Made by a program: the position numbers and the translations under genes. From NCBI RefSeq assembly GCF_035083965.1, contig NC_089724.1, forward strand, positions 19,610,974 through 19,674,973: 64,000 nucleotides of DNA, given 5' to 3'. The stretch comes from Branchiostoma lanceolatum. Its lineage: Eukaryota > Chordata > Leptocardii > Amphioxiformes > Branchiostomatidae. Shown here piece by piece: positions 28,101-60,535 of this stretch; the first letter of the stretch is position 1; each line of letters starts with the position of its first letter. The notes beneath the pieces are model-generated. The model was given only the letters and a program-made list of their open reading frames with translations. It was not told where the DNA came from and did not search any database.

Positions 28101-28203
28101 CCTACAGAAGACCAATGCTGGCATATACCAGTGTTTTGCTTCCAACAATTTTGGAAACGACACCAGCACGGCCTACGTGGAGGTACAGGAGGAGGAACTG
28201 TGA
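25190..28203 (+). CDS. IGFBP-Kazal-Ig secreted protein, copy 1, 250 aa (KAZALD1/IGFBP7-like)
   Basis: Five exons join in frame: 25190-25433, 26011-26190, 27188-27304, 27790-27890 and 28093-28203. The signal peptide (METKLLLAVWLVLHTAYC) is preceded by an in-frame ATG at 25190; 25202 is an alternative start. Exon 1 encodes a Cys-rich IGFBP N-terminal domain (CGECEPDACP, DACSCCGVC, then CGGKHW and GRCVEGYYC). Exon 2 is a Kazal-type domain (CNCKYPYRVCGSDGKDYDTY, C then GFCEFG). Exons 3-5 make an I-set Ig domain (FMSCEVKSNPSSQIVWKFKK, NAGIYQCFASNNFGN). Vertebrate proteins with this order are IGFBP7, IGFBPL1 and KAZALD1, extracellular-matrix modulators of growth-factor signalling. Exon phases match those of its tandem neighbour at 30115. 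AATAAA at 28601 is a likely polyadenylation signal. Confidence 0.88.
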
Positions 28204-30114
28204 GACAGTGGCACTCTTATGAAATCACGTGCACTAATATGAAAGCTTTGAGTGCTAAAAACGATGTCAGAAGTAAACATTAACATTCGTGTATTGACTT
28301 CTTTATTGCTGTTAAGTAGATGTTTAGGTAGAAAATGATAGTGGTGCGTTTGTTCTCAACTGATGTTAGTTTGTGGCAAAACCCTGACATATTTTTTTGA
28401 ATATTTTCTTACATCAATATCTCAATTAAAAGGGTTAACTACATGCTAGGATATTAGTACTAGTAGTAACTTATGCTTTCAGTTGCTTTATATGCAGGAA
28501 AATACTGAACACCATGAGAATAATGATCATGTACTTTAGCACCCACCTCTCCTCCTCTCACAGACAAACCATTGGATAACATGTTCATGTGTTCTTCCTA
28601 AATAAACACTTTGTCCACTCGTTACAAACGGAGGTAACGACAATGTCAAACTTGTTATTTAATTTTTATAGCCCAATGGAAGGGGCAAGGCCCTGTCTAA
28701 GAGTGATAAGTTTTTGAACATTGCACAACTTTCCTTACAATTAAAAACAACTTTTATGAGAAATAATACTTAACAAGAGTTTCACGACCACATACCTTAA
28801 CCAAATCATTTCGAGTGACGTATTATAAAAGTTTCTCATTGGTTATGCAAATAATGTCCTCATTTGCATAAATCATATCACTTGATCATCTTCTTTGACC
28901 AATATAACAGAAGTTTAAAGTCTTATCTAAGCAGAAGGCTATTGTAGCATTTCTTCATGAATTATGTAAATGAGGCCCTGATTTGTTATATTCAATGGCA
29001 TATCACTAAATTAAAAAGGCAATTGTGCTACTATGGTACTGCGTACCGCCCCCTCCCGGCCGCATTCCTCAGCAATTAATGACCAAAATCTTCTATTTTT
29101 CTCCAATTCAGTGAGGTCAACTTTCCTAGCTATCTGATATTTTGATAATGTTGCAAGCCAACAATAGACAAATGGGTCAAAGGGTCATGAGGCAGGTTGC
29201 TTACAGCAAACAATAGGCTTTTAGGTGAAGCAAAGGAAGCTGTTTGTTGCTGTTGGAAGTGTAATCGACACCAGTGATCCAGCCCAGTCACCCTATATGG
29301 GCCACTCCATTCCGAACTTAAGGGAGAGACCAGGCTGGATCATTGGAAGATGACGATGCAAAAACAGTATTTATAGACATCCTTGGAAATGTTTTTGGTG
29401 GAGACGGATTTTGTTTAGAAGACATTTTCTTTATAGTTTTCGGATTATATCCTTGTTGGTATTCATTGAATCTGATCCACGTTACTGGCATGTCTCACAC
29501 ATTCACTATAGTTTTCATACACAACATCCAAGTCTTAGAATCCATACTAAGCAAGTGAGCAAAATCATCTTGTTGATGCGTCATATTTCTATGCTCTTTG
29601 ATAAAAAAGAACTGTTCACTATAAAAGGTTTTTGCTCCTCAGTCCATAAATGTGCATGGGTATAGTTACATTGCAAAAGCCTGTTGCTGTGCACCTACTT
29701 TAAAAAGCTGCCACCCCTACAGTGGTAGTGGTACCTCCCTAGCATACAGGAATGCCAAGGTGTTTGCTCTTGGATGACAGCATCCCCTTACAGTAAACTG
29801 TCAAATGGCTCAACTTAACAAAAAATATAAGACATACAAAATTCATTAAGATGATATTCCCAAGCTAGAAAACATATTTACCACAGTAAAAAAGCTAAAA
29901 GACTTAAAAACTTTGGCCCATGTCTTATTTGCTAAAATCTGTCACTATTTCATGTAGGTGAGTATTTTCCATTCTACAGTAATATAGCAGTCTCCCCAGG
30001 CTGGGCCCCCCACAGTCCACACACTAAGATTCCTGTGTGAGTCCAGACAGGGTGCAGCTCCTGCATTCTCTCTCCAGCATCTTGATAACTCTAGCCAGGG
30101 AACCTCAGTAAGGC
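28204..30114. other. Intergenic region between tandem paralogues
   Basis: It holds the 3' UTR of copy 1 (AATAAA at 28601), a small hairpin element at 29271-29346 and the upstream region of copy 2. I see no coding exon. Confidence 0.45.
29271..29346. mobile_element. 76-bp hairpin MITE
   Basis: The arms CCAGTGATCCAGCCCAGTC and GAGACCAGGCTGGATCATTGG are inverted copies with few mismatches around a short loop. Confidence 0.5.
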
Positions 30115-33100
30115 ATGGACATGAAGGCTTGGGGAGTTCTGTTGGTGGTGCTGGTGGCAGTGGCAGTGGTGGAAGGGAGGAAAGGGAAGGCTCTTGGGAG
30201 GTGTCCTCCCTGTAAGCTGGACCAGTGTCCCGACATTCGGGGCAAGTGTTTGGGGGACGTCTTCAAGGATCCCTGCGACTGCTGTGAGGAGTGCGCCAAG
30301 ACTGAAGGTACACCTGTAGTTTCCTTCATAAATATGGTCAACACTATGGTGTGCTGATTCCAAAACCACCATTAGTTTAAAACTAGAAGGAAAGATTTGG
30401 AGAATATACATGTACATCAAAACTCCATCAAAACAACAAAGGCTCAATATACTTTACAGTTAATTGCCATGCATGAAGCAGAACTAGAAACATCTAATAT
30501 TGCAGGAAGAAATGCCAACTTTTTTTCTCAATTTCTAATAGCTTAAAGAATAGAATATTTATTCATGGAAAAAAAGCTGACTTTGCAAATTTGCAGGGGA
30601 AACATGTGGAGGGAAGAGGAACAAGCTGGGAACATGTATGGAGGGCTTACACTGTGAGACCAAGAGAGGGAGGAAGAAGGGCGTGTGTGTCTGTAACGTG
30701 GAAGGAAAGGTCTGTGGCACTGATGGTGTCACCTACAACAGCCTGTGTGAACTGGACCTCAACAAACTGGTGGGCTTCAGGGAAGGGTGGTCGCTGGAGA
30801 GGCGCCATGATGGACCGTGTTACTCAGGTATGGGACATCAAATCTTCCTATATACATTTATGATTTATGTATAAACAAGCAGGGGAGGGGTTGATAATCA
30901 TGGTTGTCCGTCTGGCCATCTTAATATATCCCGAAGTGAGGTTAACAACCCGCAATGTGCATTTTTCTGCTGAGGTTTTATGTTGGCAACTGGCAAGTAT
31001 TTGCTATTTTCAAATACAGGACAGAATACATGCAAGTATGAAGCCCCTGAATGAAGCATAAAAAGAATGAGATTGGGTTAGGGTTCAAATTACTCTTGTA
31101 AATGAGAAAAATTCCATTCCATTTCACGGCAATGGTATGGTATTGGCACAGAACCAGACATACAGAAGGCATACAGCTCAGGGAACTTTGGGAACTGGAG
31201 TCCCATTATATCAGCAGAAGCATGTGGCAAAATCAATACTTAAAGGACGATTACCACATTACTGCCAGGGTTATTGGATTATTGTACAAGAACCTGAACC
31301 TGAGTTCAGAGGAGCAGCTCTGTCCTGTTGGTAAAAGCCATTAAGCCCATGATACATGGCCGTTTCGGTAAAATTTACAGTAGATGAAAGTGTCAACGAT
31401 AATCTGAACCATAAACATAAGAGAAATATATGGTTCTGGGTTTGTTGAAGGAACAATGTCCCGGTAAATCAAGTTGTAGAGATGCAAATGCAGCACATCT
31501 AACGTTATAGTAACATGGAATATTATGTGCAATAATGTACTGCAATACAGCTGAAAAAAAATTAAGTACTCATAATAAGACTCTAGCTATACAAAAATCA
31601 AGGGACTTTTTCTTGCCCTTTCCTTTCACTATCATGAACAGATAAAGTTAGACTGATGGAAGAAAATATGCAAAAACTGTTGACTCTATCCCCTCCTCCA
31701 GCCCACCATCTCTACTGATCAGTCCCTTGTCTGCCTCTGCTGGAATTCTCCACCAATATTTACACATCATTCCTCAGAAAATATGCTAAATGAAGTGTTG
31801 GTTGAACTAATCTGCTTTACCAAGCTTCCAAACACCTGGCACTGTTGTGTTTTTCCTTCCAGAGGTTTTAAAGATGTGTTAAAGGCTAAAGACTCAAAAC
31901 CTTTTAGGAACACTTAAACACTTTGAATCTTTATAGGTCCCACGGTACTCTCACCATTCTTCAGTATTTTCTACAAACCATTTTTATAAATCAGTAAATG
32001 AGAAACAATAATATCAGCATCGCTTAACAAAACAGGCATGATCCATGTTTCTTGTGGGTGAGTTGAAATTGTCTTCGGTTACAGGGGCCTCTAAACATTG
32101 TGGGCAGCTAGTATTTAGGTTTGACATACCACAAAAGTCTTAGGGAAATGGAGATGGAAACATTGCTGCCCTGAAAACAAATACAACCATTCACTGCATG
32201 TTTCTGTTGGAAAGAAAGTTTGTGCCCAGTAGGTCTTGAAGGGGCCCCATGGGGGGAGAGGCAGACAGCATTTTGGGTAGACTGCTGACATGTATAAAAA
32301 AGACACATCAAAATTTCTACTTACTGTATCATTACTCTCCAAGTTGAGGTTTGGATCCGACTGGTTTTTTACATGTTTTTAGGCGTTTTTGTCGGGCTTT
32401 CTATATTGTCACATTTGGACGGCAAACACAAAGAAAACGGGACAATATGGAACCGGTAACTGCTACTGTATAGCATTAATTTCAATGTTTGTTTAAGATG
32501 TATAATGAGACTACTATTCCACTGGTTAGCTGGGAAATGACAAGAAACATACATGTATTTTCCACGTCATTTCTCAAGTACATGTACACATCTGGCCCTC
32601 CCTTTAGTAATCACACAGTCAAATTCATTGTGTCTAGACTCCACTTCCTTCACTAAGTCAAGTGTTTATCTAACCCATTTGGGGAGTCTTATCCCTTCTC
32701 CTTTAGGCTCTGACACTAATTCCCAGTTAGCTTAACCCCCATTATGCACACATGATCTTGCACTGTTTGGACTGCTTATAGCAACTATCCTAAATGGAAA
32801 ACATTACTAGTAGCCCATGTACATATTTACGATAGAGTCAGGTGTTTTCAATTTGCAAAAACAACTGCGTGGCTATACTTACATGTATAGCCATTGTCAT
32901 TTGATGAGAGCATTAAATTTTGTATGGAAAATTCTTTTCCTTCAATCATGGATATACAATGTAGTACTAGATGGTAATAGTATGGGTTATTTTCAAGAAA
33001 TCTTTCAGCAAATGTCAGTGTTTGGTGTTGCGTGGCAGAAGTAAGTTGTTTTAGGCTAAAGACATCCTTTTAAAACTTTCCGCGTTTGCTTCAGCTAATG

Positions 33101-35485: not shown

Positions 35486-38400
35486 CTACTTAATCTTTTT
35501 CAGAGCCACAATTTTGGGCTTCTTCCCAGGTGGGTCTTGTCCCCCCCCTGAATCCTTTTCCAAGGCTCTCTTGTCAGTAGAGACTGGAGGAATCCTCTCC
35601 ACAGAGATCACCCCTGGGGTCTGTTTCATGATCCTCTCGATGGTAATCACGCCAACTGCAGAACCTCGGGTCTCTGAGAGGGATGTACAGAAGGTATACA
35701 ACCACTGATAACGTATTGATAATCCTCGGGCTCCAAATGTCTAATTCCTCGACTACTATAACCTAAAATACACATCTCAAAAGATATTTAGCTGTTTAGC
35801 TACGTGTACAAAAGTGTTACGTGTACCAAAGTGTCACAAAAGCAAATACAGTTATAAGAGCCTAATTTTTACTTCACCTTCAGGATTTTCAGGCAAATAC
35901 AAATCTGTATTTTATTTTCAACAAATTTAAGATTACACTTGGTTATCTAACCTGTGTATCTGTCCTGAGTTAGTGGTACTCTATAGGAAGATGAAGACAC
36001 TCACCTGCATGTAGTAACACAGATCTACAGTTGATGGAGACAGCATCCTTGGCCTGTACCTGGTTCATGCCAAACAGCACTCCTCTGGTCATAGTGTCAA
36101 GGACATTTTCCAAGAGATTTTTGTTCTTTTTGCAAAACTGCTCAAAGTTATCCTTAGCAGATGAAATCACTGAGGCCTACGAACTTCATTGAGGCGATCG
36201 TACAGAGTTACTAAGTATCACTGTTGAATACTTTCCAAAATATAAAAATAAAAACAAACTGATAAAATGTCGTTTATGTATGCTGCTTACAACTGGAAGG
36301 ATACAAGTTGGCTACATCATGAGGACCTCTAAGCTCTATTGCCTGAAACAAAAGTTATCTTCCTGATGAGTCCAACGGACATTGTGGTAAAACATCAGAT
36401 ACAGGAGACAGGATATTGGATCCATGTAACCATAAATGATAAACAGTTACTGACTTGTTTACTAACTGTCGTTCAAGCTAACATTTAGTTGACAGAAAAA
36501 CATTGAAATGCAGAAATGGCAGGGCCGGGACTCGAACCCGGGTCTCTGGTACATTCAACCAGTGCTCTTCCGGCTGAGCTACCCTGCCTTGTTGGCACAG
36601 ATTTACACAAAGACATAGCAGAAAAGTTACAAGCAATGGATTGATGTTGAAGGAACAAGCCATAGTCAGAATAAATTCTTTACATATAACATAAGTCACA
36701 ATTGTGACAAGAAATAAGAAGTCTTTGCAGATGCTTAACAGAATGCAGAATGGACTCTGTAACACATATCATAATGTATGTGTTACATTATTAGTATCAA
36801 CAACTACACAAAGTCTGTCACGAGTGAAGAGAAGAGTACTGAGGAGTGAGGACTGAAAACAGTGTCACACTTTCTGCAGGAGGCAGCAGGTTTGATGAAG
36901 GAGGAGGAGACTAAAGAGAGAGTCCAAACTTTACTCCACAGTCTAACAACAGCGTACGCATTTGGAATTGTAAAATATTCTTACCACGATCTGAGTGAGT
37001 ACATAGAATCATTACCTGATAGAAGAAATTACAGAATCAAACATATGAATGTTCATGAAGGCGGAACTAAAATACAAAAGCTGCAAAGCCTTGTATTAAA
37101 ACTGTTATGTTCTTATGTATATTGAATGCTCCTGGAAGAATTAATGGATTGAGAAACACTTCATTGAAATCTAACCTTTTCAGCTTGGCTGGAAAGGATG
37201 ATATTCTGCAGAAAGGACAGAAAACAATATTTAAAACATATGTTTGTGTCAGCACATCCTTAGAAGCAAACCAGTTATGAGTTTTTTTGTCAAAAATGTT
37301 TTGAAATTAAAGCTTTTGGACTAAAACTGTACACACACATACAGATACACCCACATAGCAGTGGTACGTAAATGTCAAGATTTACCATGAATCATTTGCC
37401 TAGGCAAGACGCCCTGTCTTCTACCTTTTCTCCCAAGTAGTATGTTCCATGGAAGAAAGAAATGTTTACCTTTCCCTTGCAGAATGTCATCAGGTCTGTA
37501 GCATTAGAGATGATGTATCTTCTCAGGGTACTATCTGTGTTTGAAGCAAATAGCATAGTCAAGAGCAATGTATTACAAACGTACACATGTTTTGATTTGG
37601 TTCTTCATTACTTAGCACAAAAACCCTTTATACAGTTTTTTAACAGAAAAAACTATGAATCATGCATAAAGATTGTAGACAAGCTAAAAAGTCAACATTC
37701 TCATTCTGGTTAGCCATGTACATATAGTCATCATAATATGTTGTACAACCATGATGCAAACCTGTCACATGCAGCTGGTCACATGAAATGACAACTTTAC
37801 CTCGGATAGCTGGAGAATAAACTATCTCAAAGTAGGCTCCTCTCGCAATTGCCTGCAGAACAGAAAGAGACACTTTTATTCTACTGTCTATATAGAGAAA
37901 ACTAAGATGGACTCACAGAGAATACATTTAATTTAGTAGGAATATAATCTGCCAAAGGTGTCCATTTTTCCAAGTTGTACAACTATTTATAAGACAATAC
38001 TCACACAATAGCTATTATACCAATCATTGAGCCGTACTGTAAGTATCATTTGAGAAAAAAAGCCCTGTACAGTCTCTTGTTGGGAGAAAAATTTGTCAAG
38101 AAGCGGTTGGATGGAAAAGCAAATATTGTCTTTAGACTTTACCCTCTTGATCGGAGTGAGCTTGAGAAGGAAGGGAAGCTTCTGTGTCATGTCCAGGGTT
38201 ATGATGTCCACCTCCAGGGTCTTACAGGCTGCCTGATACAAGAAACATTAACATTTTAGTTATAATTTTGAGAAATAGCCTTGGAACAACCACTGGAGCA
38301 GACGCAAACTTAACAGGATGCACCCAGGGTGGATTCCATGACAGAAAATCGCAAGCTAGTAACAGTCAATATACAAAAATTACATACATCTTGTATTTAC

Positions 38401-42901: not shown

Positions 42902-45900
42902 ATGTCGGATCAGGACACCCAGGACATCCCACTGTCTGATGGAGAGGAGGATATGTTGGAAGATCCTGGTCTGGAAGATACAGTTTCTGATGAAATCATT
43001 CGCAAGGTATTTTTATGGAATCAACAGCCTGTGATGTCCAGTAATTCACGCCTTTTTCAACTTGAGCACTGCTATAGTATTTTGAAATAAAAAGTTGTAC
43101 CACAGTGGAGCACTGCTACCTGCATTGATACTATAGCATCTAAAAAAATACTGAACTGATACAATCATCTTTTTCCTTAGGATCTCCTATCAGATTTTGC
43201 AACACCTGCCAAAGTCCCAACTGGGCGCAGCAGCATTGACCATGGCACTGAGCACATGAAGGTTTACCTCAGGATCAGGCCTCTGGCAGAGGATGAGAAA
43301 GAACATGGAGAAGAACAGGTCTGGTGGAGTAGTTTATGCTGTGATCTTAGAATTCTTATTCATTACATAACCTCTGACTGTAAAACTACTACAGACAGAA
43401 GTATGTTCGTCTTTTTTTTTATCGGTGGGGCAGCCCAGGGCTTATTTGATCTCTAATAATATTCTACCCTTGCAGTCATCAAGTTGTGTGATAAACATGT
43501 TTGCTTTCCTTACAGGGCTGCATGCATATAGATAATGAGAACACCTTGGTTACCATGGCACCCAAGGATTCCTTCATGTTCAAGAGCAGCACCAGGGGGT
43601 TTGGTGACATCATGCACAAGTTTGGTTTCTCTCGCATCTTCAACGAAGACACCTGCCAGAAGGACTTCTTTGATAACTCCATGCTGGGAATGGTGAAGGA
43701 CTTTGTGGGTGGACAGAACTGCCTGGTGTTCACATATGGGGTCACCAACTCTGGCAAGACTTATACCATACAAGGTAGGATAGGAGATTTATTTAACTCT
43801 GGCTGTGCTTTTGACCCAGTGTTTCTGCCAGACCGTGACTGAGAGGCCGTCCACTTGGGGAGGGCCGTAGCACAAAAATTAACTGACCAGGAAAGTAACT
43901 GAATGTTACCATCAGAAAAGACTTGGTTTATTTTTCAAAATCAATTTGTTACGTTGTTGTGTACATTTCTGTAAGGTTGAAGATGATGTACATTGTACTT
44001 CAAATGTATTTTTTACAGGGAACTCCAAAGATGGCGGCATCCTTCCCCGTACCCTGGACGTTGTCTTCAACAGTATTGCGGAGAAGAAGTGGGAGGGGGG
44101 CATAAGCTTGAAGCCCAGGTGCTTCTCCGATGTTGTCAAACTGGACGAGAGAGGCGTGCGTCAGCAAGAGGCTATAAAGGCAGCTGTGCTGAAGATGGCA
44201 GAAAAACAGGTAACTATTGATGACACTGTCCTGCATAGCCGCAGTATCTTAAACCTGGAGATTAAGGTTCACTTTAGTACTGATCTATGCAAAATTTTTC
44301 AGCTGATTAAACCATTTTTTTTCAGGATCTAGAGGGAGCCAGTGGAGCAGACTTGACCAATATTTCCAAGATGTCAGCCATGACAGAAGACTCCTTGTGC
44401 AGCCAGTCCTCTCAGAAATCTGACACTATGGCGGACTCAGATGGTAAGGCACTGAATGATGGTTTCTTCACTTCATAGCAGGTTTGAAAATGATTAATTA
44501 AGCTGTTGAGTTTTCTTGTGTCAGCTAACACAGTAGTAGACTTAATTCTTGCAGCAACTGGTGTGACCTTAACGAAAAGTTGATGTAATCTTTTAATGCA
44601 AATGTTATTGTTTTATAACAAAAATTTGGTTAGTATTAGTAAGGTAAAAGATTGAGGCATGTTTCTCAGAGAAAATGTTCATACTTCAATATATGTGTTC
44701 CCTATGTGTGTGTGTGTTGTGTTTGTTTCTTCACTATGATTGTGATGTCTGTTATGTGTTCTGTAACAGTATCTTGTATGTCCAGTTCACCTTAATCTAA
44801 TGACAAAGGTAAATAAGGCACATGATATTATATCTTCTCTCAGCTAAGAACACTTAAGATAAGATGAGTTCACCATTATGTCATAACATTTAACTAACTT
44901 CCTCGTAAGATAATGCATGTTAACAGACAAATCTCGTCTCCCACCCTCCTCTCTGTCCCATGTCCACCCCCTCCCCTCCCCTTCTCTATGCTCGGTGTTG
45001 TCAGGAATTGATGTCCTTGCAGAGGTGGAGTCTCGTGTAGCAGATGAGACATCAGTCAGTGTGGATGCCCAGGGGCCTGTCAAGTTTTCCATTTGGGTCT
45101 CGTTTGCTGAGATCTACAATGAGTACATCTACGACCTGCTAGAAGCCTACCCACAGGGAAAGAACAAGCGCAGGCCGACCCTGAAACTTTCTGAGGACAA
45201 GCATGGCAGTATATACATCAAAGGTCTGTCTCCATCTCAAGCCAACCAGATTACATGTTATATTGCCATAATCTAGTCACTAGTGAAACAGTTAAAGATA
45301 ACAATACAATGTGTACATATTCAGATTTTTGGAGCTGCAGTAGTGAGTGGTGATCTTAACTACATGTTTCTTTAAATTCTGTTCCGTTTGTTGCCATAGC
45401 CATCTAGTTTGGTCCTAAGAAACCAGTGTATGTTTCCAGGTCTAAGGGAGATCATGGTGACCAGTGCAGACGAGGCTTACAAAATCCTGACCATTGGGCA
45501 GAAAAACCTCCACATTGCTGCCACCAAGATGAACCACTGCTCCAGCAGAAGGTAGGAAATATGTCTATATAAACAACATGGGGGCTGTGGACTGTGGTGA
45601 ACCCACTATGACCCCTTACGGCCTTAGGGGAAGTGGTAGAACCTGAAGGGCAAAGGCCTCAGGAGACCAGAGTCCTGGAAGAAGGCAGAATTACACGTAA
45701 GTTGGTGCTCCCAAAGATACCGGTGTGCTTGTGTATGACTTAGGTTATAAGAACCTACAACCTAACATGGACCTTGGGCTGTCACTCCAATAGTGTTTGC
45801 AGTTAACACCAGGAGTGTAGGGCTCTCATTGGACAATGGCCAGATAGGAAGATTGTTTTAAATTTCATGGTTGTGACGAATGCTGTCTGGTAGGAGTAAG

Positions 45901-48900
45901 AGTTTTGGCTCCCTTGCCCAAACTGTATCTGTGGATTCTTATACAACAAGACTTTAAACTTGACTACCTAAGATGACTGTCATGTTGTGATTGATAAAAT
46001 CCCTTTCCTAAGTCTAAGGCACCAAATTTGTCTCTCATGAACTCCTGTTTTGTTTCAGCCATTGTATCTTCAGTATCAAGATCCTGAGAGTTGTGGATGT
46101 TGATGACCCACATGTGGCCAGAGTGAGCATGTAAGTCACTAGTCTCGTCTTGTAGTAAAGAGTGATACTATCTGCAAATGTGTATGCTTGTCCTGCCATT
46201 GTTCTTTTCGACAGACATTGGGGGGTGAATTAGAACAAAATGTTTGCAGTTATTATACTATAAGACACAATTCTTTGTGTAGCATTTATAAATGGGTTGT
46301 TTTTATAAATACACTACATGAAATCTTTTTTAAACTTACGCTTTTTTGTAATCAGGTAGTGAGGTACTTCAAGGTGCCATGTATGTACCAGTAGATTGGT
46401 TCAATAATGTTTTGTTTTTGTTGAAGGTTGTCCTTCTGCGACCTGGCTGGATCAGAGCGCTACACAAAAACCCAGAGCACCGGGGATCGACTGCGAGAGG
46501 CAGGGAACATCAACACCTCCATCCTCACCCTCGGCAAGTGTATCAAGAACCTGAGGTGGAACCAGCATCATAGGTATGTGTACAGAACTGTTATCTACAG
46601 GAGAGAAGGGTAGTTCTGTTCACACAATGTTGGAAAAGTCATTCATTCAGTGATTACGGTTTGTAAAATATTGCAATCTATACATCAAGGCATATACATC
46701 AAGGCAAGGATGTGTTTCTGTTGTATTCTCTGTTGGTCTGTTTCCAACAGTGTGTCTGGTTCGAATCCTTATATCTTGACTTGATAAGCATATCTGTTTC
46801 TTTATGTTGCAAATAAGTGATTTACACTATTTTACAGGGACCACCCAAAGATCATTCCGTTCCGTGAGAGCAAGCTGACGCGGCTGTTCCAGAGTTTCTT
46901 CCTCGGGCATGGCAAGGCCGGCATGATTGTGAATGTGAACAAGTGTGCCTCCATGTTTGACGAGACATACCATGTCCTCAAGTTTTCAGCAGTTGCTAAG
47001 CAGGTATTCATCAGTTATTATTTTTTTTGGGGGGGGAGTCAGTATTAGTGATTGGTAGAGTACACTTAAGTAGGTAGTTGATACCAGCTTTTCTGCATTG
47101 CCTATGACTATTAGACACAAAATGTCTGATTTCTCTGAGACTTAATGCTACATAGAGCTGTTTCTGATTGTTGGTTGTAATTTTCTGTGGTAGATTGTGA
47201 CCAGGATCACCAAGGTGGACAGGTGGAACTCGTCTTTCCCTCGCCCAGCACCGCCTCGAAACGTGTCTCTTGCACTCAACACCTCGGCCACGCCCAAAAG
47301 TCGTGCTACCGTTGGTTGGGCAGCTAACGCAGTACGGGCATCCACTGTGGTGGAACAGGAGGTCATTGAGGAGGAGGAGGAAGAAGAAGATGATGATGAC
47401 GACGATGATGCAGAGACCACGTATACGGTAAGAAAGTTGTCTTCTTATCTCTCCCTTATTTAACTGCAAAGGGCAAAATTCTTATTTGTCTTTTTCTAAT
47501 TAGAAAGTATAAGTAAAAATGGTATCATTGGTCATGTTATGTTGTATGCAGCCTGCCACTTGTCATATGTCGTCCAATTGACAATTCATGTGTTTGCGAT
47601 CACAAGCTTAGGCTTTTGACAAAGATATGTGTTAACTTAATCAATACCAAGTCCAGTAAATAGTTGTTCATGATGGCACTGTCTCCTCTGGTCAGGCTAT
47701 CATTAGCCGTTTGCGGAAGTTCAAAGACTCCTTTATGGAATCTGCACCAGGATCTGGAAGCACTTCTAAGACGAAGTCCCAGCGCAACCTAACTGTAAGA
47801 CGAGATTCCATTAGCTGGGAACACTGTAGTGTAGTAGCTGCTGAAAATAGATGGTAGTTGCAGGGGCTAAAAACTTACCTACTTCATTATTGCCCTGGTG
47901 CCCCACGTTTTGCTTCCCCACTGGCACAGAATTTTCCCATAAAATCTATCTTAAATAATGCCGGAGATCTTGCTGTGCATGGCTCAGGTACTGAAATGTT
48001 ATACTGCTGCATGCTAATGGTTATCATATTCAACACATTTACCTTAGGACCACTCCTGATCTGAGTAGCACACCTTCCGTTTATTGTGGCAGAGAATCCC
48101 TTTTTTCTTCCATGCACAAATAAGGGTTTGGGCCATTGCTTTGCTATAAAGCAGCTTCTAGTACCTTATATTTCTGACCTAGTATTCATGCAAAATCTGT
48201 ATAGCAGGCGTTCATAAGAAAATCTGATTGTTTTTCCACAACCCTCTGTTCAGGACTTGGCATCTCTGGTGGAGAAGCTCCAACAGGAGCTTGTGGAGGA
48301 GAGGAAGGAGAAGGTCCTGATGGAGGTCCGCATCCGGGAGGAGGTGTGTGAGGAGATGGCCAAGTCTCTGGTGGAGATAGAGAACGATTACAGGTATGCT
48401 AAGATGTCTTCTTAATTAGCTCAGTCTTATATTGTTACATTTATAATTGTTAAAGAAGTTTTTGTTGTATGTACCACAAATTCAAGTCTTCTCACACTTG
48501 TTCTTCCTCCAGTGAACGCCTGCAGCAACAGCAGCAGAACATTGAGGAGAAGTGGGAGAAGAGGATTGAGATGTACAGCCAGAGCATCAAGAAGTCCCGT
48601 AAGCGGGCTCGGGTGGACAGAGTACAGGATGAGGAGGAGGAGTGGGTCTCCAGTGTTCTCCTGCATGCAGAGCAAGTCAAAGTCAAGGTATGTGTGTTAT
48701 ATTGTCAAAAAAAGGAAAGTTTCCATAAATGCTTAACTTGTTTTGAGAAAGATCTAAACTATTGCTTTTTGGTTAGCTCATTGATCGGAACGTTTCCTAT
48801 TTTGTATTCTACCTCATCCACTACACCATTGCTGTTCCAGGAAAGGGATGAGCAGATTAAGGATCTGACGATCCAAGTCACCTCGATGAGTGAAAACCTG

Positions 48901-50240
48901 AAGATTGCAAATGACAACCTTGACTTCAAACGCCTGGAACTCCAGCGCCGGGATGACCAGCACAAGCAGGAGATGACCCGGCTGAAGGAGTCACTGCAGA
49001 AGGCAGAAAAGGCTGCATCACAACAGGTATACCTGTTCTCCCTCTCTAATTTTCATTTAGTTTAAGGATGAATGATGTACATATATCGTGTTGGTATGTC
49101 TTATTAATAGGAAAACTTCCCTAATGAATTGAATGTTCTGTCATACAGTTTTTACTTTCCATTTTTGATCTTGTTATATATATATATATTTTTCCAGGGG
49201 TCATCCAGTAGTTCTGTAGACACACACCTGCAGACAGAGCTGAGTGAGGCCCAGAAAACAATCAAGGCACAAGAGAAGGAGATAGCAGATCTCCAGGTCA
49301 GGCCCACAAAACGTTGCTCAGAAAAGTTTGATATTACAGATCTCTGGACTTTTTCAATCTTAAAACAAGTTAAAAATGCTTTAAGCCATATAGTGTATGA
49401 GACTTAAAAAAACATTAGAGCTTTGAATGCTATGTTACCAATAATTGTGCAATGTGAATGATATTTGGTAACTTATTGACCTGACTTTTCATTGTCTTTT
49501 GATTGTAGGAAACACTGAAGGAAGCAGGGGAGACCTTCTTTGAGAAGAATGACGAAATCGAGAAACTGAAGTCCGCTATCACCGAGGACGAAGAGAAGCT
49601 GAAGTCACAGGTAGAAATTCCTTCAGAACAAAATATGAGCGATACATCTTTTTTCCCCCACCAGCATACTGTCATAGTTTCACGTGAAGATGGTTGACAC
49701 TGTCCTGTCGCTCTTCTCCAGAATGCCACCATTACAGACCTGCAGCAGCTTGTGGAGGAACTCCGTACCTTGGCGGATCAGACCAAGGCCACCATTGCCG
49801 AGAAGGAAGAGAAGATTGCTAACCTTGCTAAGCAAATCCAAGACCAAAAAGGTTCACCCTCTTCTTCACCCTCCCAAATTTCTTCTCCTGGCCCTGAACA
49901 AGTTCAGTCAGAAAATGTTGCTCCCGAGTCCCAAGCATCCGCCTCTAGTACTAATGAAGGCTCCACCACAAGTGGTTACAAACCAGTTAAAGCCAATTTT
50001 CATGGGCCGTTATCAAGTAAGATGTCTCCACACTTGCCCTTCTGTACCCCGCCTCGTAGTAAGCTCACACAGTTGAACAGACATGTTATTAGCCCAGGGG
50101 GAGTATATAAACCATTTGGGGGGTGCAAGACTACATCTCCCATCAAGGGAAGGTATCCCCGTAACCAGAACTACATGTACACACCAAGCTTTAAGTACAA
50201 CCTGCGGTCAACCAGGACGTATACTGGCAGGTACAAGTAA
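42902..50240 (+). CDS. Kinesin-6 short isoform of about 1,026 aa (KIF20A-like) by extended exon 18
   Basis: If exon 18 is not cut at 49851 (weak donor AAAAAG-gttcac), the frame stays open to a stop at 50240. This adds 129 residues: a Ser/Pro-rich stretch (SPSSSPSQISSPGPEQ), then FCTPPRSKL, ISPGGVYKPFGG, SPIKGRYP and a basic end (YNLRSTRTYTGRYK). Its low-complexity then basic Thr/Pro/Arg character looks like a kinesin-6 tail rather than intron. The size fits human KIF20A (890 aa), whose terminus is also basic and rich in Ser-Pro/Thr-Pro with an LRSRRS motif. ATTAAA at 51209 followed by GT-rich sequence could end this transcript. No transcript evidence is available here; the isoform is inferred from the open frame and composition. 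Confidence 0.6.
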
Positions 50241-53200
50241 CATTAAGATGTTGTCAGTTACACAGATAGGGAGGATGGATAGAGGATATGGCACTTAGAA
50301 GCAAGTAAAGTGGGTAGAGGATATGACACTTAGAAGCAAATTTTATCTACTCACATAAGTTATTCTATAATGTTGAAGCTTAGATTCCCCACCCCCCTTT
50401 TTTTGCCTCACAAAATTATATGTATTAATGTGCTGAATGCAGAGATATGATATGTTACACTTGTTATCTTGGTCTAACTAGAAACGGGCCATTATCCTGT
50501 CAGAGATTTTTATGCTCAAAAAGAGATGCTTATTTCATTAGAATGTAAAAATATCGAGAGTTCTGCTCATGGCCATTAGTCATGCAAGTTGCCGCACAAA
50601 GAAATAGCACAATGTATTTGACTATCTTAAAAGTTTGTCTAGGAATCCTAATTACAGTTAGTCTTTATATATATATGAGATGCACAGGGCTTATTCACTG
50701 CCATTACATGTAGTTCAGTGCAATACTTAGTATGTTCCAGGCAAGGCCATAATATTATGTACAAGCAAGTCTTTGGCATAAGCAACTATCTTCAAGGTTT
50801 TTTTCACATGCATGCTCCTCTTTTCTTCTCTCACAACATGGCAAAAGGGCCCCTTTCTAAGTTTCTTGCATCGTTTTCTTTCTAATGACTGGTGCTCTAC
50901 TTTAGAACTGCCCAACACCACTAACATACATGTAGCTGTTTTCATGTGATATCCTTTGAAGCTTGCAATTGCACTAACACTCCATTGAGAAAATGTATGG
51001 GATCTTTGTATGGTGGTAAGTGCAAAACAGCAAGATGTCTTTGGGTACCCTGCAAATTGCTCCCTATGCAACCTCTCTGCTTTGATATGTATATCTTATT
51101 TGCAAAAATTATGTTGATCTTTCTGTGCTTCTAAAAGAAATGAGTAAAATAGTCTTCATACTGTGTGTAGTACTTTGGTGACTGAATTCATGCTTGTAAT
51201 CTTGAGAGAATTAAAGCCAATGTAAAATCAAGTTGTGCTTTCTTTCATCTTTGTGTGTTTTTCTGGAGCAACACCTTGCCTCACTAAGACATCTTGCTGG
51301 GTTGATTCTACTGTGTTACTGAGAAGTTTCACATGCTTGTGTTGAAGAGTACAACTGAAAAACATAGCTTGTAATTTTCCACAACATACTGAAGTTCACA
51401 AAAATGTAGCTTACATGATGCTATTTTTGACATCACAAGGGTGGTCTTTTATGATACCTAAAATGAAGAAAAACGATGTCCACATTCCTATTCATCAAGG
51501 TGTATATATCTTTCCCTTACTACATACAACATATATCCTACAGACACGATGGACCAAAAGATAGAAGCCCTACAACAAGACCTGTCTCTCCTGTCATCCG
51601 AGAGAAACGAAGCCATCAACAAGGCAGACAAACAACAAAATGAAATCCAGGAACTAGTAGAAAAGGTTCAGTCCCAGACGGTTCTGCTGAATGCCACCTC
51701 TACAGGTGAAGAGGATGAGACTCAGCCGTTACGTCAGAAACTGTCTGAACTGGAGGATTCTCTCAAGGAGGCAAGAGCAAAATCAGACTCCTACCAACAA
51801 AAGGTAGAGGAGTTAGTTAAAACAAAGGAAGAGCTTGTGTCCTCAAAGCAAAAAGTTTCAGTACTAGAAGAACATCTCCGTGAGGCCCAAACAACTTCAG
51901 AGTCTAGTAAAGTCAATGCTGATGAGCTGTCTAGTAAGCAAGAAGAAGTCCTTTCTTTAAGAAAGAAACTGGAAGAATTGGAGGGCAGCCTGGAGGAAGT
52001 AACTTCAAGTGTAGATTCCAACAAAGAAAAGATGTCCAAGAAAGATGAAGATCTTCTCTCCTTGAAGCAGAAGATTCTAGACCTGGAGCAGGCTGTAAAA
52101 GACTCCACAGCAGAAACAGAACAATACAAAGAGAAAGCTGAGAAATTTGAGAAGACAATGGAAGACTACAAGACAGCCCTGAGTGATCATGAATCTTTTG
52201 TGGAAAACCTGAACAAAGAAGTAAAGGAACTGAAGTCTGAGCTTGAGGAGGAAGTGAAGAGTCACCAAGCTGCAAAGACACAGGTACTGGAATTAGAACA
52301 CAAGGTTGAAGAGCTGGACACAGCAAATAAAACAATAGCAGGGTCAACTAGAAAAGGAGACAAGGAAAAGCAGAGGCTGGAAAAGGCTCTTAAAGAAGCC
52401 AATACATCCCATTTGGAAACCAAGAAACATAACTTAGAGCTGGAGAAGAAGTTACAGGAAGCTGAAAAACACCTGGGAGAAGCCAAGAAAAGGGAGCAGC
52501 TAGCTAAGAAAGATGTGAAGTCTGCCAGAGAGAATCTGAAAACAGCAGAGGAGCATGTAGCTGCGAATGAAAAGTCTATAAAAGACTTCAATAATCATGT
52601 TGCAGAGCTTAAGGAATCTGAGGGGAGTCTCAAGAAGCTGTTGGCCTCAGCCCAGGAACAGGCTGATAAACTCACAAGCCTCATGACTGAAAGAGAAAGT
52701 GCAATTAAAGAGTTAAGAGAGGATGTTGCTACCAAGGAAGCTGCTGTGAGGGAGAAGGAGGGAGAAGTTGGGTCCTTAACTCAAAAGCTTGATGAGATGC
52801 AAAAGGTACGGAGCATTACAATGTTGTTGCTCTTTTACACACATTACACAGGCCTCAAAATTCCCATGAGCAAGTTGATGAAGAAAATTACAAATACTGT
52901 GAATGTAGACAAATTCATGATAAAATGTTATCCTCACTATAAGTGACTGTAAAAGTTATCAGTTTAGCTGACTTTTAAAAACCGAAGGTAAAACACAGAC
53001 AACCATAACTAATTAGTTATGAGTTTGATTTTGTATCTTAAGCAATAGCTTTGATGTTCAAAAACGATGTGATGCTTAAAGGTATTCATGAGTTCCCCAC
53101 TCCTACACAGCTGCACCAGCAGGATAAGGACACCTGCAGCAGCCGACAGGAGGAAATAACACAGCTGCAGACTCAACTGTCTGAGGTCAAGAAGCAGCTG

Positions 53201-56200
53201 CAAGAGAAGGAAGCTTCAGAGAATGAGGTAACTCCTTGACCTGGAAATAAAGTCAAAACATCTTAGATGTTGCAGTAATGTTGCCAAAATGTCTTGTAGT
53301 ATTTTACTGAAAAATGATTTTCATCATACGGTGTCTTCACATGCTGATGGCATTCTTTTTGTCCCTCATCTTTCATATCATGGCTAAATCACACTTGTTG
53401 TTATCCAAGAGAATGCTAGAAAAGCCATTTGGCACCCAATCCCTATTGGTTCCAGAATCAGGCAGCAGGGAGAAGGTTAATGACATCTAGATGAAAGGAC
53501 TGGCAGTTTGGGGCATTTAAAGCTTGACCATCATTTGTTTCCTTACAGATGAAAAGTCAGGTTGCGATGTTGTGGAACCAGACCCAGGCTGACAAGAATG
53601 CCTTACATGATGCAGAGAGTGTCTCCAGGCAGCTGGAAACCCAGGTGGAAGGGCTGAAAGGACAGCTGAAGGAGAAGGAAGACCGTGCCTCCATGTTGGA
53701 GAAGGTTAGTCAGCAGATGCTGTGCTGGAAGGTTGTGTTTTATGGTTGCAGTGACTTTCAATGTTGTAGATCGGTCTGGTCTTTTCTAATCTTCATTGTG
53801 AGCAGTCATGTATGTGACAGGCCTAGTTAGCCACACATACACTAATCACAAGAAGATCTCAAATTACAGCCATGAATTTGGCCATGAAATGGCATTTGTG
53901 TCACTGATTGGCAGCAATTTTACTGTGTGTCACAGTTCTTGACCTCCTGTGCTGCCTATCCTCTGTACCAACTGGAATGATCCTTACCTTATAAGATTTT
54001 TACTATGACAACTTCAATCTACTCATAGCATGTTCAATGATGAATGTTTACCTCTTGTTTTAGGATCTTGAGATTGTGAGATCAACTGTTAGTGACTACA
54101 AGGCAGTCAGAGAAGATCTTGAGAAGGTAGGACTTGTCTCTCCTTATTAGCTCCTCTTTCAAGCCAGCTAGTTTACCCACTAATGAATCATTGGTCTAAG
54201 TACGTTCTTCAGTGTGCAATTCTGAGGTTGACTGAGTAGGTACAGAAAGATTTCTGTTTTTTTGGTGGTCTCAATACTGTATGCTTTTTACCTGCACAGA
54301 CACGGTCCCGGGAAGTTGACATGAGAGCCACCTTGCTGTCCATGACAGCACAGCAGGAAGAGAGGAACAGCACCATCAACAGTCTGGAGGATTCCCTGAA
54401 CACCCTGAAGCAGGAACTGAAGGAGAAGGTGGATCAAGCCAAGGTAGCTCAGGAGGAACAACAAGCTGCAAAGGTACAGGAATAAAAGCATGTCCAGAAG
54501 TCTGATTGTAATGTGGTATGATTAAAGACATGGAAGGAAACAAGATGAAATGTCTGTTACATACCTGAAAGATCTGATCATGACTTAATCTGTCCTTTTA
54601 TTGAGCAGAAGGAGAAAGAAGATGCTGCCAAGAAAGTAGAAGAGTTGGAAGCTCTCCTGGAGGCGAAGGAAAAGCGGCTGAAGACCAAGACTGCTACCAT
54701 CAAAGAACTGATGGAGAAGGCTGACCAGGAGAGGATGAAGGCTGAGGGCGAGAGGAAGAAATATGAGATTGCTTTCACAGGTTTGCCAATGACATCTACC
54801 TGTATGTACTAAATAAAGCACTGTTGGCTGGACCATGTAATGGGTTTGGATGTTGCTGATACAGTGAATTTACCCTAATATATGTAGTGATGATTTGCTG
54901 GTGTAAAGTGGTGTTGAGTAAGAGATCTTTGTTCCTATTCTCTTTAGACGTGCAGGGTAATGAGACGGTGATCTCAACCCTGAAGCAGGCTCTGGAGGAG
55001 CAGGAGGCTACCATGGCAACCCAGGACAAGGTGCTGGAGAGCAAACAGGAGGAGATCCAGACATTTGCAGATGGTGAGTCAAATCCTCACACAGCCAGTC
55101 TGGCAGTAGCTACCAAGCATCTACTCGCCTTAAAAAGGATTTGTACATTGATTTGAAATAATTGTTAGGCTACAAATTTACTGCCTCTGACAATGCAGAA
55201 GAATCTCCGGGCAATCCATCACACGAGGGGGAAACTTCTATTTTGACCATATTATGTAAAGGACTCTGATTAGGCCAAATGCTTACCTATGCCTTTTTGA
55301 TGTACAGAACTGGAAGACTTGCAAAAGAAATACTCAGAGCTCTTGGAGTCGTCTGATGTCAACAAGAGGGAACTGAAGAGAACAATCAGCAACTTGGAAC
55401 ATCTGAAGTTGAACTACGAGCAGGCTGACACCGACAGGAAGGCAGCACAGGAGGAACTGTGTAGTGTGAAGGAGGAAAAGGATGGGCTGCAGGAACAGGT
55501 GAAAATTTTATTGGCTTCATGTACTGAGAAACACATACTTAAAACATTTACAATTCATATTTACTTTACAAAATCACTTAACAGGATGAACCATTGTTTT
55601 ATGTATGAATTGGCATGTATGCCAGCTAAAAAGCTTCTTAATTGAATTTAGTAAGTCAGTATTTGGTCTTTTTGTATTTTTGATTAAATCAGTATTTGGT
55701 CTTTTTGTATTTTTAATCAATCTTTTGATTTGCTTCAAAGTTGAAGACCCTGTCTGAAAATGTCCAAGAGCTGGAGCGAACACTTTACTCTACAAAGAGT
55801 GAGGAGGGGGCACTTCAAAATGAAAAATATCGTTTGGAGGATGCTCTTGCTGACAGCAAAAAGGAAGTAGAGGTAAATGAATTACTATAGATTGTCCAAA
55901 TCATTGTATTTAGAAATTCATTTGCTAGTATACACATGCAACAAAGATGATGTTTGGAGTATTGACTATTTTGATAATGCAGGGGACAAGCATTTTTGAG
56001 CTATGTTTTTACAACTCTTATTGATTCTGTCTTTGTCAAGCTTATCTGAAATACTGCCTTACTATGAGACCTTACAAATCCTGAAAAAGCATTGATCTGT
56101 TTTAGAAGTACAAACTAAATCTGTATTTGTTGAACGCATAGAACATGAACACTTATTTTCTTTTAACAACGTCATCATGGATGATATTCTATCAACATTA

Positions 56201-59200
56201 CATTCTCTCTGGTAGGCCCTTGAGCAGTGGCTGTCAGAGTCAAGAAAGGAGTTGGAGCAAGTGAAAAAAGAGCATGAGCTGGGAGAAAAGAACAACACTG
56301 ACAAGGTAAGCTGGAAATGTCCTGGAATGGATGGTCAAGATCTACATCATCGATGAGTATCTTTTAAGTGCTTATGTAGATACAGAATTGTGTATGTTGA
56401 TTGTGAATAGGAGTGCTAAGAACTAGCTGAGTGTTTGACTGATGTTGACTGCCATGTTTCACAGGAAGCCCTGGAGGACACAGTAAGGCAGCTGAAGCAG
56501 GACCTGGAGGCAGTTCAACAGCAGAAGGAGGAAGAGCTTGCCCAGTGGAGGAGTGAGAGAGACAGTCTTGTGTCTGAATTAGAGAAACAACTCAAGGCCA
56601 TAGTTGCCAGGGAAAAGGCCACGCAGGAGTCGTTGGCAGATGCAGAAGAAGAGATCAAGACATTAAAGACTGAGAAGGAAGCAGTAAGCATCATAACTAG
56701 GTTACCATAGACCAGTAGGGCTTAATCTTTCCTTGTGTGTGCAAGTCAATGTCCAGGTCTTGCATACATCATGGAAAAAGTAGGCAGTAGTAAGTTCAGG
56801 GCAATAGACATTTTACAGCACGAGGATGTCCAAAATGTTGGTAGCATTTGATATTAGGTTGTCAATTCCTGGAAGGTTGGTCCAAGTACCCTTAAAGGAT
56901 GTTGGCCTTTCCATTGCTTTTAGCTTTTGCCAACCCTGACTTAAAAATCAGGATACCTTCATATTTTAACAACAGAACACAGCTGTATAACCACCATTAC
57001 CATATTACATGGATAATGCCATAAAGCTTGCACTGCACGATTAGAAGATTACTAGTTGCCTCTTATTGCTTGTCCTCCACAGACCCAGGAGTCGAGTGAC
57101 CGTCTGACAGCCCTGCAGAGCCAGCTGGACGAGTGTTACTCCACCATCTCTCACCTGGAGGAGCAGCTGAAGCAGCAGACCAGCGGCCCAGCCACCCGCC
57201 GAGGCAGGCGCAACACCCGCTCCGCCATGATCAGTGAGGACCAGCTGCGCAGGGAGCTTGATACCTGCCGCAAACAGGTACTGTTTGGATGAATTTTTTG
57301 TTTGCTGATATTAGTAAGTCATCTGGACTGTACAGTTTTCAGATTACACTTTTCTTTTATCAGCTCTTGGTAATGCCTAAATTGTCTTTGATCCAGAACT
57401 TCTAGAGCACCAACATTTATTACCTTTACTTTTGCCTTTACAAAAGCTGCAAGAGGAGTATGGGCAGTACCTAGCTGAATATGCACAGGTAGAGGCCTGG
57501 TGTGACACTCTGTAGTGCAGTGGTGTGTTTCCTCCATAGCAGCTGGTTTCTTTCAGCTTTAGAATTTTCATTATACTGAAATATGATATACATTGTACCA
57601 TATTGACTGACAAAGTTATAAAGGCTTGAACCATGCAAATTTTAGAATAAGTACAAACTTCATTTTCACTTAACCTGTCTTATTTGTTACTTGTCTATTT
57701 CAATTTTCAATACATTATGGAACAAAGAGCAAAACAGGTATAAAGACATCTCTGCTACAATGTAGTTGCTGTCCTAGATTAGCAATCATAGCTGTCAGTT
57801 CTTCTCAACGACTAAAATACTGAAAAAAAGTTAAGATCAAGATCTAACCTACAAAAAGCTCTAGAAATCCCCTAGTAGCTCCCACTTGTAGAATAGTACC
57901 TAACACAGTACTTATTCCCACAGTTGGTAGAGGAGCAGCGTGCCAAGGAGAAAGTGTCTGATAACCTTGACAAGGCTGTCAGGGCAAAGGACAAGATCAT
58001 TGATGAGCTGAAGAAGTCCAACCAGGACCTACAGAGGGAACTCTGGGCACAATCGGTTGGTTCATTTAGACTGATGCCATCAATGATAATATTATGTTAG
58101 TGCAGTAAACCTGAGTGGCACTAAACAATTGCTTGATTAATAGCCTTTGGCAAAATCAATATACAGCATAACCTTCCCCATGCTGTGACCATTGCTATTC
58201 CTTAGTTCGTTTTTAATCCAGCAAAAGTCAGTGGCTCAGGAAATATGGGTTACACTTGCTGAATTTCTTTTGGCTCCATAATAACAATTACTCTTGGCAC
58301 ATGCACATGCACATAAATGGGATGTTTACTTTTTAAGGACGAGCAAAGTCACCATGCGAGCAGTAGCAGTATTGAAAGTGCCATCATCAAACAAGAGGAG
58401 GAGGAAGAGGACATAGAAGCTGCTGAGGAGGTATGGAATTTTACATGCCATATTAAAGCTAGGCAGTTTTAGGAAAAGATTGAACACATATACAAAAGAA
58501 AGGACATTTCTTTGTTAGATGACCTTCAAACGCTTTTTCATTTGACAGGCTACAGAGGAAGGAGACGGGCCAATCGTGTTTGACGAGAGTGAGATTGTTG
58601 ATGAGGAGGGGAACAGGAAGCGACGCTTCCCGTCTGTCCATCTGGAGATGGACGTCACACCTGTGGTCACCAAGCGTAAGACAAAAACCACACGAGCTGC
58701 AGGGAGTCGCAAGGGGAGGAAGAGGAAGAGTGAAGAAATGGTGGTATGGATGCGAGATTTCACAAATTTTCTTTTGTATGTAACATTTGGATTGAATGTC
58801 TTCTGATGCCTACTTGCTTATTCGTTTAAAAATCATTAATGCTTCCACATATGTAGTAAAGCTCAATAAATAATCCTTCCCAGAATGCTTTACCAATTCC
58901 AAATGGCATGTCTACTACCCTTGCATCAACTCCTTTACACTTCTAAACAAACATTAAGTTTACCTTTTACTGACTTTATAGAATAAGAATGTGCCACATT
59001 CATTCACAGTATTTCTAGATATCAATCGTAAATGACTACTTTCTGTACACATCCCTTTTTTCTTTCAGTGAAGGGATATTAGCTTGACAAGGTCATTTTG
59101 GGCATGTGTGTGTCCTGAGGAATGTTGTGTGTGTTTTTACAGGAGAATGAAGACCCCAAGGTCGACACCCCTGCCACAAGAACCCGCAGGAGAAAGAAAG

Positions 59201-60535
59201 TCCCCAAGACATCTGTGAAACAGGAACCTGTATCACCAAGTAAGGAACCACTCCTTCCGGAGTTTGATGATTGAAGTTGTCTGATTAAGCCTAAAATTAA
59301 GTCAGTGTCATGTATAAATGTCTTAACATTAAAGAAGACTTATGAGGCTCGAAAATGGACAAGATTTTTGTTGTTTGTGTTGATGTTTTGTTGTTGTCTT
59401 TTCAGACCCTTCAGAGATGCATGTACCAGAGACTCCAGAGGATCAGTTGCCACTCAGCTCACTCCGTGGGAGCAAAAGAACAGCCCTCTCCAAAATTGGT
59501 GACTATGTCAGCAACTCGCCTATGGCCAAGTCAGGTGAGAAAGCCTGGTCATATGTTCTGTCAGCTTGTACATGAAGATGAAATGTTGGACGCCGCTAGA
59601 TTTTGCATGCAGAATTTCGATAGATAAGTAAATGTGCACCTATTCCACCAGAGCTATGGAATAGTTTGGATAATTTTGTCTTCCTAGTATTGTAACTGAA
59701 CATATCAATGCCATGCCACACAGCTAAGAAGATAGTGGAGGCTGCAGTGGGAATGGCATCTCCAACCAAGTCACCTGTTTCCGAGTCCCCTCCCAGGCCC
59801 ACAGAGAAAAAGAAACGTCGGAAACTTTACAAGACTGACATCTCTGCACCATTCGAGTGCCCTCCACATCAAGTAAGGAATGATTTGTACCTTTGTGTTG
59901 ACCCCCCATAGGTGAGGCAACAGCTGTGGCTGCATGAATAAGTATTGGACTTCACATTAATAGTACATGTAGATCAATGGATCAAGCCCTGCTGTTAGCA
60001 AAAATGATATAGAATGTTTTGGTCAGTTCTTTGTTATTCTTCTCTCATGTCCACCCTGCTACAAATGCTTGAATGAGGGCAACTTACAAATGGCAGCCTG
60101 CTGCATGCCAGTGTCATCTCTTATTCTTTAGTGCTAGTACCATAGCACTAAAAGATTAGAGGATCAGATGCTAGAATACAGTGCTGAATTACATGTAGAT
60201 GATCATAAGTGTTAGGATATAGAAATTATAGAATCTACCACCATTTGTCGGTCACAAGTGTTAGGATAAAGGTAAATATAGGTAAATACTTTTACCTTCT
60301 AAGTCATACAAAGTCTTGCCCAATGTCGAAATACCCAAATACCATGATAGAATGCCAGCCATGGCAAGGTACTTACACAATTTGTCAGCTGTTCCAATAA
60401 AGTTGTTGATTCAAAATAAAATAACTGTTTATTTGCTTTTCATTGTAGATGATGTCAACTGGGATCAATGAGCCGGCAGAGGATGCACACTCGATTGTGA
60501 CTAGGCGACTAAGGACGAGAGCACACAAGAAATAA
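42902..60535 (+). CDS. KIF20B: Kinesin-6 family protein, long isoform of about 2,170 aa (KIF20B/MPP1-like)
   Basis: Thirty-eight exons keep one frame. Starts run 42902, 43181, 43516, 44019, 44326, 45005, 45440, 46059, 46427, 46838 (motor), then 47194, 47696, 48254, 48513, 48841, 49198, 49509, 49722-49851, 51544-52805, 53111, 53549, 54064, 54300, 54609, 54948, 55308, 55741, 56216, 56465, 57083, 57447, 57924, 58338, 58549, 59143, 59406, 59724 and 60449-60535. Motor marks: P-loop GVTNSGKT (156-163), switch I NHCSSRSH (375-382), switch II DLAGSE (410-415), and the long loop-6 insertion of kinesin-6 between them. An acidic linker and about 1,400 residues of coiled coil follow. The tail matches human KIF20B: RKRKSEEM, KIGDYVSNSPMAKSAKKIVE, RRKLYKTDISAP and VTRRLRTRAHKK. 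KIF20 kinesins act at the central spindle in cytokinesis. Exon 34 may end at 58740 or 58743. Confidence 0.93.

Follow-up and report, generated by a model that had tools for sequence, protein, structure and literature searches.

A lancelet KIF20 gene whose composite terminal exon may yield both a long and a short kinesin-6 motor

Can one gene provide both kinds of motor that vertebrates keep in two genes, KIF20A and KIF20B? The question is raised by a kinesin gene on the forward strand of a 64,000-nucleotide window of Branchiostoma lanceolatum DNA (contig NC_089724.1, positions 19,610,974 to 19,674,973), which we read as 38 exons, from 42902 to 60535 of the window, joined without an internal stop; exon borders were set by hand at AG/GT sites that preserve the open frame (Table 1). 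We posit that this is a single kinesin-6 (KIF20) gene, the terminal exon of which is composite and would yield long and short motors, a reading of the DNA letters to which we assign a probability of roughly 0.58. A first-pass annotation of the same stretch had likewise proposed one gene with KIF20A-like and KIF20B-like ends. A KIF20 motor, a KIF20B tail and a stalk colinear with that of KIF20A were all recovered, whereas the sequence likeness of the short tail to KIF20A was not.

A KIF20 motor with two ends

What does the reading frame allow? From the ATG at 42902, exons 1-17 joined in frame make 854 codons, and exon 18 begins at 49722 in phase 0. Reading through exon 18 leads to the TAA at 50240-50242 and a short form of 1,026 residues, in line with the stop and approximate length given by the first-pass annotation. 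Splicing the donor at 49851 to the acceptor at 51544, and on through 19 further exons, preserves the frame and yields 2,169 residues plus a stop; using the donor at 50016 instead gives 2,224 residues and leaves residues 953-1026, 74 in all, as the only part specific to the short form. The long-only region comprises about 1,272 residues. Its first acceptor, at 51544, scores 5.8 bits, seventh lowest of 37 in a tie.

Which exon 18 donor would serve the long form? A generic donor matrix with provisional values gives the donor at 49851 (AAG/GTTCAC) 0.0 bits, less than any other of the 37 in the gene model, for which the median is 7.5; the donor after 50016 (CAA/GTAAGA) receives 7.7 bits, the highest of the 29 GT sites in 49722-50242. 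A matrix built from the other 36 donors of the gene gives 3.95 and 7.82, respectively. Both sites are in phase 1, which matches the requirement of the acceptor at 51544, and because 50016 scores far higher in that same phase, we favor it and predict a probable length of 2,224 residues for the long form. Thus, the splice from 49851 to 51544 that was originally annotated, with a product of 2,170 residues, is sound in frame but does not use the better donor. Two results weigh mildly on the other side: 4 of the 36 other donors score below 3.95 in the gene's own matrix, and alignment across the junction to a provisional KIF20B sequence gives 1532 for 49851 versus 1486 for 50016, a comparison in which the 55-residue insertion of the 50016 version is penalized by itself.

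Judged by its motor sequence, the gene belongs to the KIF20 (MKLP2/KIF20B) branch of kinesin-6, closer to KIF20A/KIF20B than to KIF23. The best match of the motor in PDB is KIF20A (E value of 4e-131, 441.7 bits), and the next kind of match is 5x3e (198.9 bits), which we take to be Zen4, a KIF23 relative. The P-loop GVTNSGKT and the motifs SSRSH and DLAGSE are intact, and the motor has a long loop L6 of the KIF20 type, which the KIF20A alignment crosses with few gaps. The motor is 47.9% identical to that of KIF20A as given in PDB and 44.3% identical to that of a provisional human KIF20B sequence; the KIF20A and KIF20B motors are 47.0% identical to each other.

One position in the motor (43516-43774) invites a separate comment. 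The bulky Trp153 of KIF20A, at a position given as bulky in KIF20A/KIF20B motors, is said to keep the central sheet twisted (PMC10508983); the aligned lancelet residue is a Cys, so that the bulky residue has no counterpart here. Based on this Cys, the bulky-residue trait may have been a later arrival.

How far does the long form resemble KIF20B (MPP1, MPHOSPH1)? Its C terminus aligns with KIF20B peptides printed in a paper (KKKRRKLYKTDISAPFE in the gene), and none of 2,000 shuffles aligned as well, in agreement with the clear KIF20B tail noted at first pass. The full-length KIF20B reference is a provisional sequence; the tail match holds with printed KIF20B letters only. The stalk segment of exons 24-29 matches the provisional KIF20B with a BLASTP E value of 2e-8. 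The likeness thus takes in the C-terminal tail, the stalk segment at KIF20B 1300-1498, the sequence IYNEYIYDL in the motor, and the long stalk as a whole, which in KIF20B consists of several coils with hinges. Unlike KIF20B, the lancelet protein has a motor that does not resemble KIF20B more than it does KIF20A, and its gene, as read here, can also end early.

The short end: coding sequence or open intron?

The short form has the layout of KIF20A as far as sequence goes, namely, a motor, a short stalk, and a short basic tail, given that the KIF20A stalk is colinear with the shared exons 15-18. The stalk reference (KIF20A 668-890, mostly provisional letters) aligns in order with these exons plus the short tail at a score of 112; among controls, the best of 85 windows taken from the long-only coil scores no more than 80 and the best window of the provisional KIF20B no more than 98, and heptad-block shuffles reached 112 in 0 of 500 trials. 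The make-up of the short tail also resembles that of KIF20A in being basic, poor in acidic residues, and rich in Ser/Thr-Pro. The 74-residue end has 14 Lys/Arg, no Asp/Glu, and five Ser/Thr-Pro sites, in keeping with the basic, Ser/Pro-rich tail described earlier.

Does the likeness extend to the residues themselves? The first-pass annotation had named a short tail dissimilar to KIF20A as evidence that would overturn its reading, and dissimilarity is what we found: Z was -0.7, -0.5, and -0.8, the last two for the last 60 residues of human KIF20A (provisional letters) and for a presumably murine peptide, 860-880, that PMC6688537 prints. Two elements of KIF20A are highlighted in PMC7337490, an acidic patch (636-652) described as essential for binding the chromosomal passenger complex (CPC) and RRSQR (675-679), which is also related to the CPC; a search of the gene for RRSQR did not find it. 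In total, the best PDB motor match, the colinear stalk, and the basic, Ser/Thr-Pro-rich short tail are like KIF20A (MKLP2), and the dissimilar last residues, the missing RRSQR, the Cys in place of Trp153, and the length of 1,026 versus 890 residues are not. Among invertebrates, Drosophila Subito offers a parallel as an MKLP2-type kinesin-6 in which N- and C-terminal parts flank the motor (PMC5940148); the passages on it mention no long KIF20B tail.

Is the short end coding at all? One could hold that the long, KIF20B-like form alone is real and that the short end is an intron open by chance, amounting at most to intron retention. We consider this account unlikely, and several properties of the extension tell against it. 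None of the other 36 read-throughs is as long as the 129 codons of exon 18; the runner-up (125 codons) crosses a 153-nucleotide intron into the next exon, and the third reaches 48. When the stretch was dinucleotide-shuffled 4,000 times, it remained open in only 7 cases. Guanine-plus-cytosine (GC) content is 0.473 in 49852..50016 and 0.484 in 50017..50242, compared with 0.498 for the exons together and 0.366 for the remaining introns; it falls from 0.48 before the stop to 0.36 after it (0.364 over 50240-50500), and no overlapping 388-nucleotide intron window out of 630 reached 0.48, few introns being long enough to supply one. The last 74 codons are exon-like in synonymous codon choice (0.197), a value attained by none of the 2,057 overlapping windows from introns and by 23 of 1,624 presumed noncoding windows. 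Scored on full codons, the extension reaches -0.189 per codon, higher than any of 468 overlapping windows from introns, the best of which has -0.248. The outsize intron 18, with its one poly(A) signal, also argues against the long form alone.

Other measures weigh in favor of a chance-open intron. Taken alone, the 74-codon part remained open in 69 of 4,000 shuffles, and a GC content of 0.48 was reached by 74 of 2,501 intron windows of 223 nucleotides, the length of that part. In codon choice, the first 55 codons of the extension look like intron, with values as high in 1,812 of 3,111 intron windows, and because of this, the coding status of the 55-residue stretch is uncertain. Over all 129 codons, codon choice is equaled by 9 of 473 intron windows and by 241 of 1,568 presumed noncoding windows. 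The full-codon score of -0.189 lies under those of all 38 exons and is not specific to the frame, since the stretch read in another frame scores -0.138. The short tail showed no similarity to PDB, Pfam, the KIF20A tail, or the KIF20B tail. The measures of coding given here are not independent of GC content. The scores are mixed, and on this sequence evidence the short end nonetheless looks like more than random read-through.

Intron 18 and the choice between ends

How might one exon serve two ends? Intron 18 is 1,692 nucleotides long (1,527 with the donor at 50016), and the next longest intron is 576. The sole AATAAA/ATTAAA in 50243-51543 is the ATTAAA at 51210-51215, with a T/GT-rich stretch downstream, and no acceptor above 7 bits occurs between 49722 and 51706. 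In the mechanism that we propose, an exon 18 donor, 50016 being likelier than 49851, would be spliced to 51544 to give the KIF20B-like long motor of 2,224 (or 2,169) residues. Were that splice omitted in favor of polyadenylation at the signal near 51210, exon 18 would run on to the stop at 50240 and give the 1,026-residue motor, with its KIF20A-like layout and a short basic tail bearing Cdk-type Ser/Thr-Pro sites. We infer that both transcripts are made and that the choice between them would be a competition between U1-dependent splicing and intronic polyadenylation at 51210.

Intron 18 also contains a strong U1-like donor (gtg/GTAAGT after 51015, at 51016-51021; 9.4 bits) 195 nucleotides upstream of the ATTAAA. 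U1 dampens polyadenylation signals, and the site after 51015 could dampen or regulate the one at 51210. MKLP1/CHO1 (KIF23), another kinesin-6, has isoforms that differ by an exon 18 of its own (PMC9581516), but there the exon is included or left out, no alternative last exon is involved, and the subfamily is a different one.

Exon 19 stands out in its own right. At 1,262 nucleotides it is by far the largest exon; its GC content (0.433) is lower and its codon choice (-0.106) more intron-like than in its neighbors, and an in-frame ATG at 51549, five bases in, has a good context, with A at -3 and G at +4. Could exon 19 instead open a second gene? A short kinesin ending at 50240 would then be followed by a separate coiled-coil gene starting at that ATG, either through a split from a KIF20B-like gene or as an unfused ancestral state. 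The start context, an in-frame stop preceding the ATG, the departure of exon 19 from its neighbors, and a poly(A) signal upstream of it would all suit such an arrangement. However, the exon 18 donor and the acceptor at 51544 are phase-matched, and the KIF20B tail belongs in vertebrates to one protein together with a KIF20 motor, which here lies directly upstream on the same strand. The GC content over 51236-51543, at 0.357, shows no promoter-like rise, although promoters were not searched for. We regard two adjacent genes as highly improbable and retain the single gene with a composite terminal exon.

Elsewhere in the window, open reading frames at 10706-14432 on the reverse strand resemble betaine-homocysteine S-methyltransferase; one has a Pfam S-methyl_trans match below the cut-off, and another has none.

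Table 1. Parts of the kinesin gene and other features of the window
Feature	Position	Strand	Basis
Exons 1-10: N terminus and kinesin-6 motor domain (residues 1-509)	42902..47003	+	Translation, PDB match, motifs
Exons 11-17: neck region with acidic stretch, start of coiled-coil stalk; common to both forms	47194..49610	+	
Exon 18 core: residues 855-897, the final coil common to both forms, as far as donor AAG/GTTCAC	49722..49851	+	
Ser/Pro-rich stretch, 55 residues, probably in both forms; ends at in-phase donor CAA/GTAAGA	49852..50016	+	
Candidate short-form-specific end, 74 residues, stop TAA 50240-50242	50017..50242	+	GC, codon choice, composition
Putative short-form 3' untranslated region; end coordinate estimated	50243..51240	+	Only AATAAA/ATTAAA in 50243-51543; GC 0.36
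Exon 19: opens the part specific to the long form; 421 residues, judged coiled coil by eye	51544..52805	+	
Exons 20-33: remaining long coiled-coil stalk	53111..58430	+	Residues 1573-1828 (exons 24-29) match KIF20B 1300-1498
Exons 34-38: basic KIF20B-type C-terminal tail, stop 60533-60535	58549..60535	+	
SWIB domain	17995-18306	+	6e-20
Fibrinogen C-terminal domain	21873-22649	-	E 3e-64
IGFBP-like (below cut-off) and Kazal exons	25067-30871	+	
tRNA-Ile (AAT) gene	36517-36588	-	

Ancestry of the two ends

Does the locus preserve an ancestral state? A motor tree of four sequences (301 columns, three topologies, rooted by parts of 5x3e) has its best likelihood with the gene outside KIF20A plus KIF20B, barely ahead of the gene with KIF20A; the gene with KIF20B is the least likely. 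P values from the approximately unbiased test are 0.557, 0.534, and 0.106, respectively, so that none is rejected with these four sequences, and the bootstrap proportion estimated from resampled log likelihoods (bp-RELL) places the gene with KIF20B outside the 95% set (0.042). A split of the lancelet gene that predates the vertebrate KIF20A/KIF20B duplication fits this four-sequence tree.

The first-pass annotation had read the locus as an ancestral choice between short and long ends that was divided after duplication, with the short one retained in KIF20A and the long one in KIF20B. The motor is about equally close to both paralogues, one gene unites a KIF20 motor, a KIF20A-colinear stalk, and a KIF20B tail, and the likeliest tree, if barely, places the gene outside both; the short tail, as described above, gives no similarity to KIF20A. 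An inherited alternative last exon, and with it isoform subfunctionalization, is possible, and we hold the history as annotated to be doubtful. Our own version is similarly tentative: the KIF20B tail would predate vertebrates, and a composite last exon present before the duplication would have made both motor types, each vertebrate gene then fixing one.

What would this mean for the family? Janisch et al. (2013), as cited in PMC5374676, reportedly call KIF20B vertebrate-specific in their title. In an invertebrate, a single KIF20 motor that bears the full KIF20B-type tail would imply that the defining part of KIF20B predates the vertebrate duplicates, and a tail older than vertebrates would contradict the description of KIF20B as vertebrate-specific, which also appears in PMC9581516. 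If the short form is expressed, the locus would offer a clean and testable isoform choice, one possibly split between two genes for cytokinesis motors.
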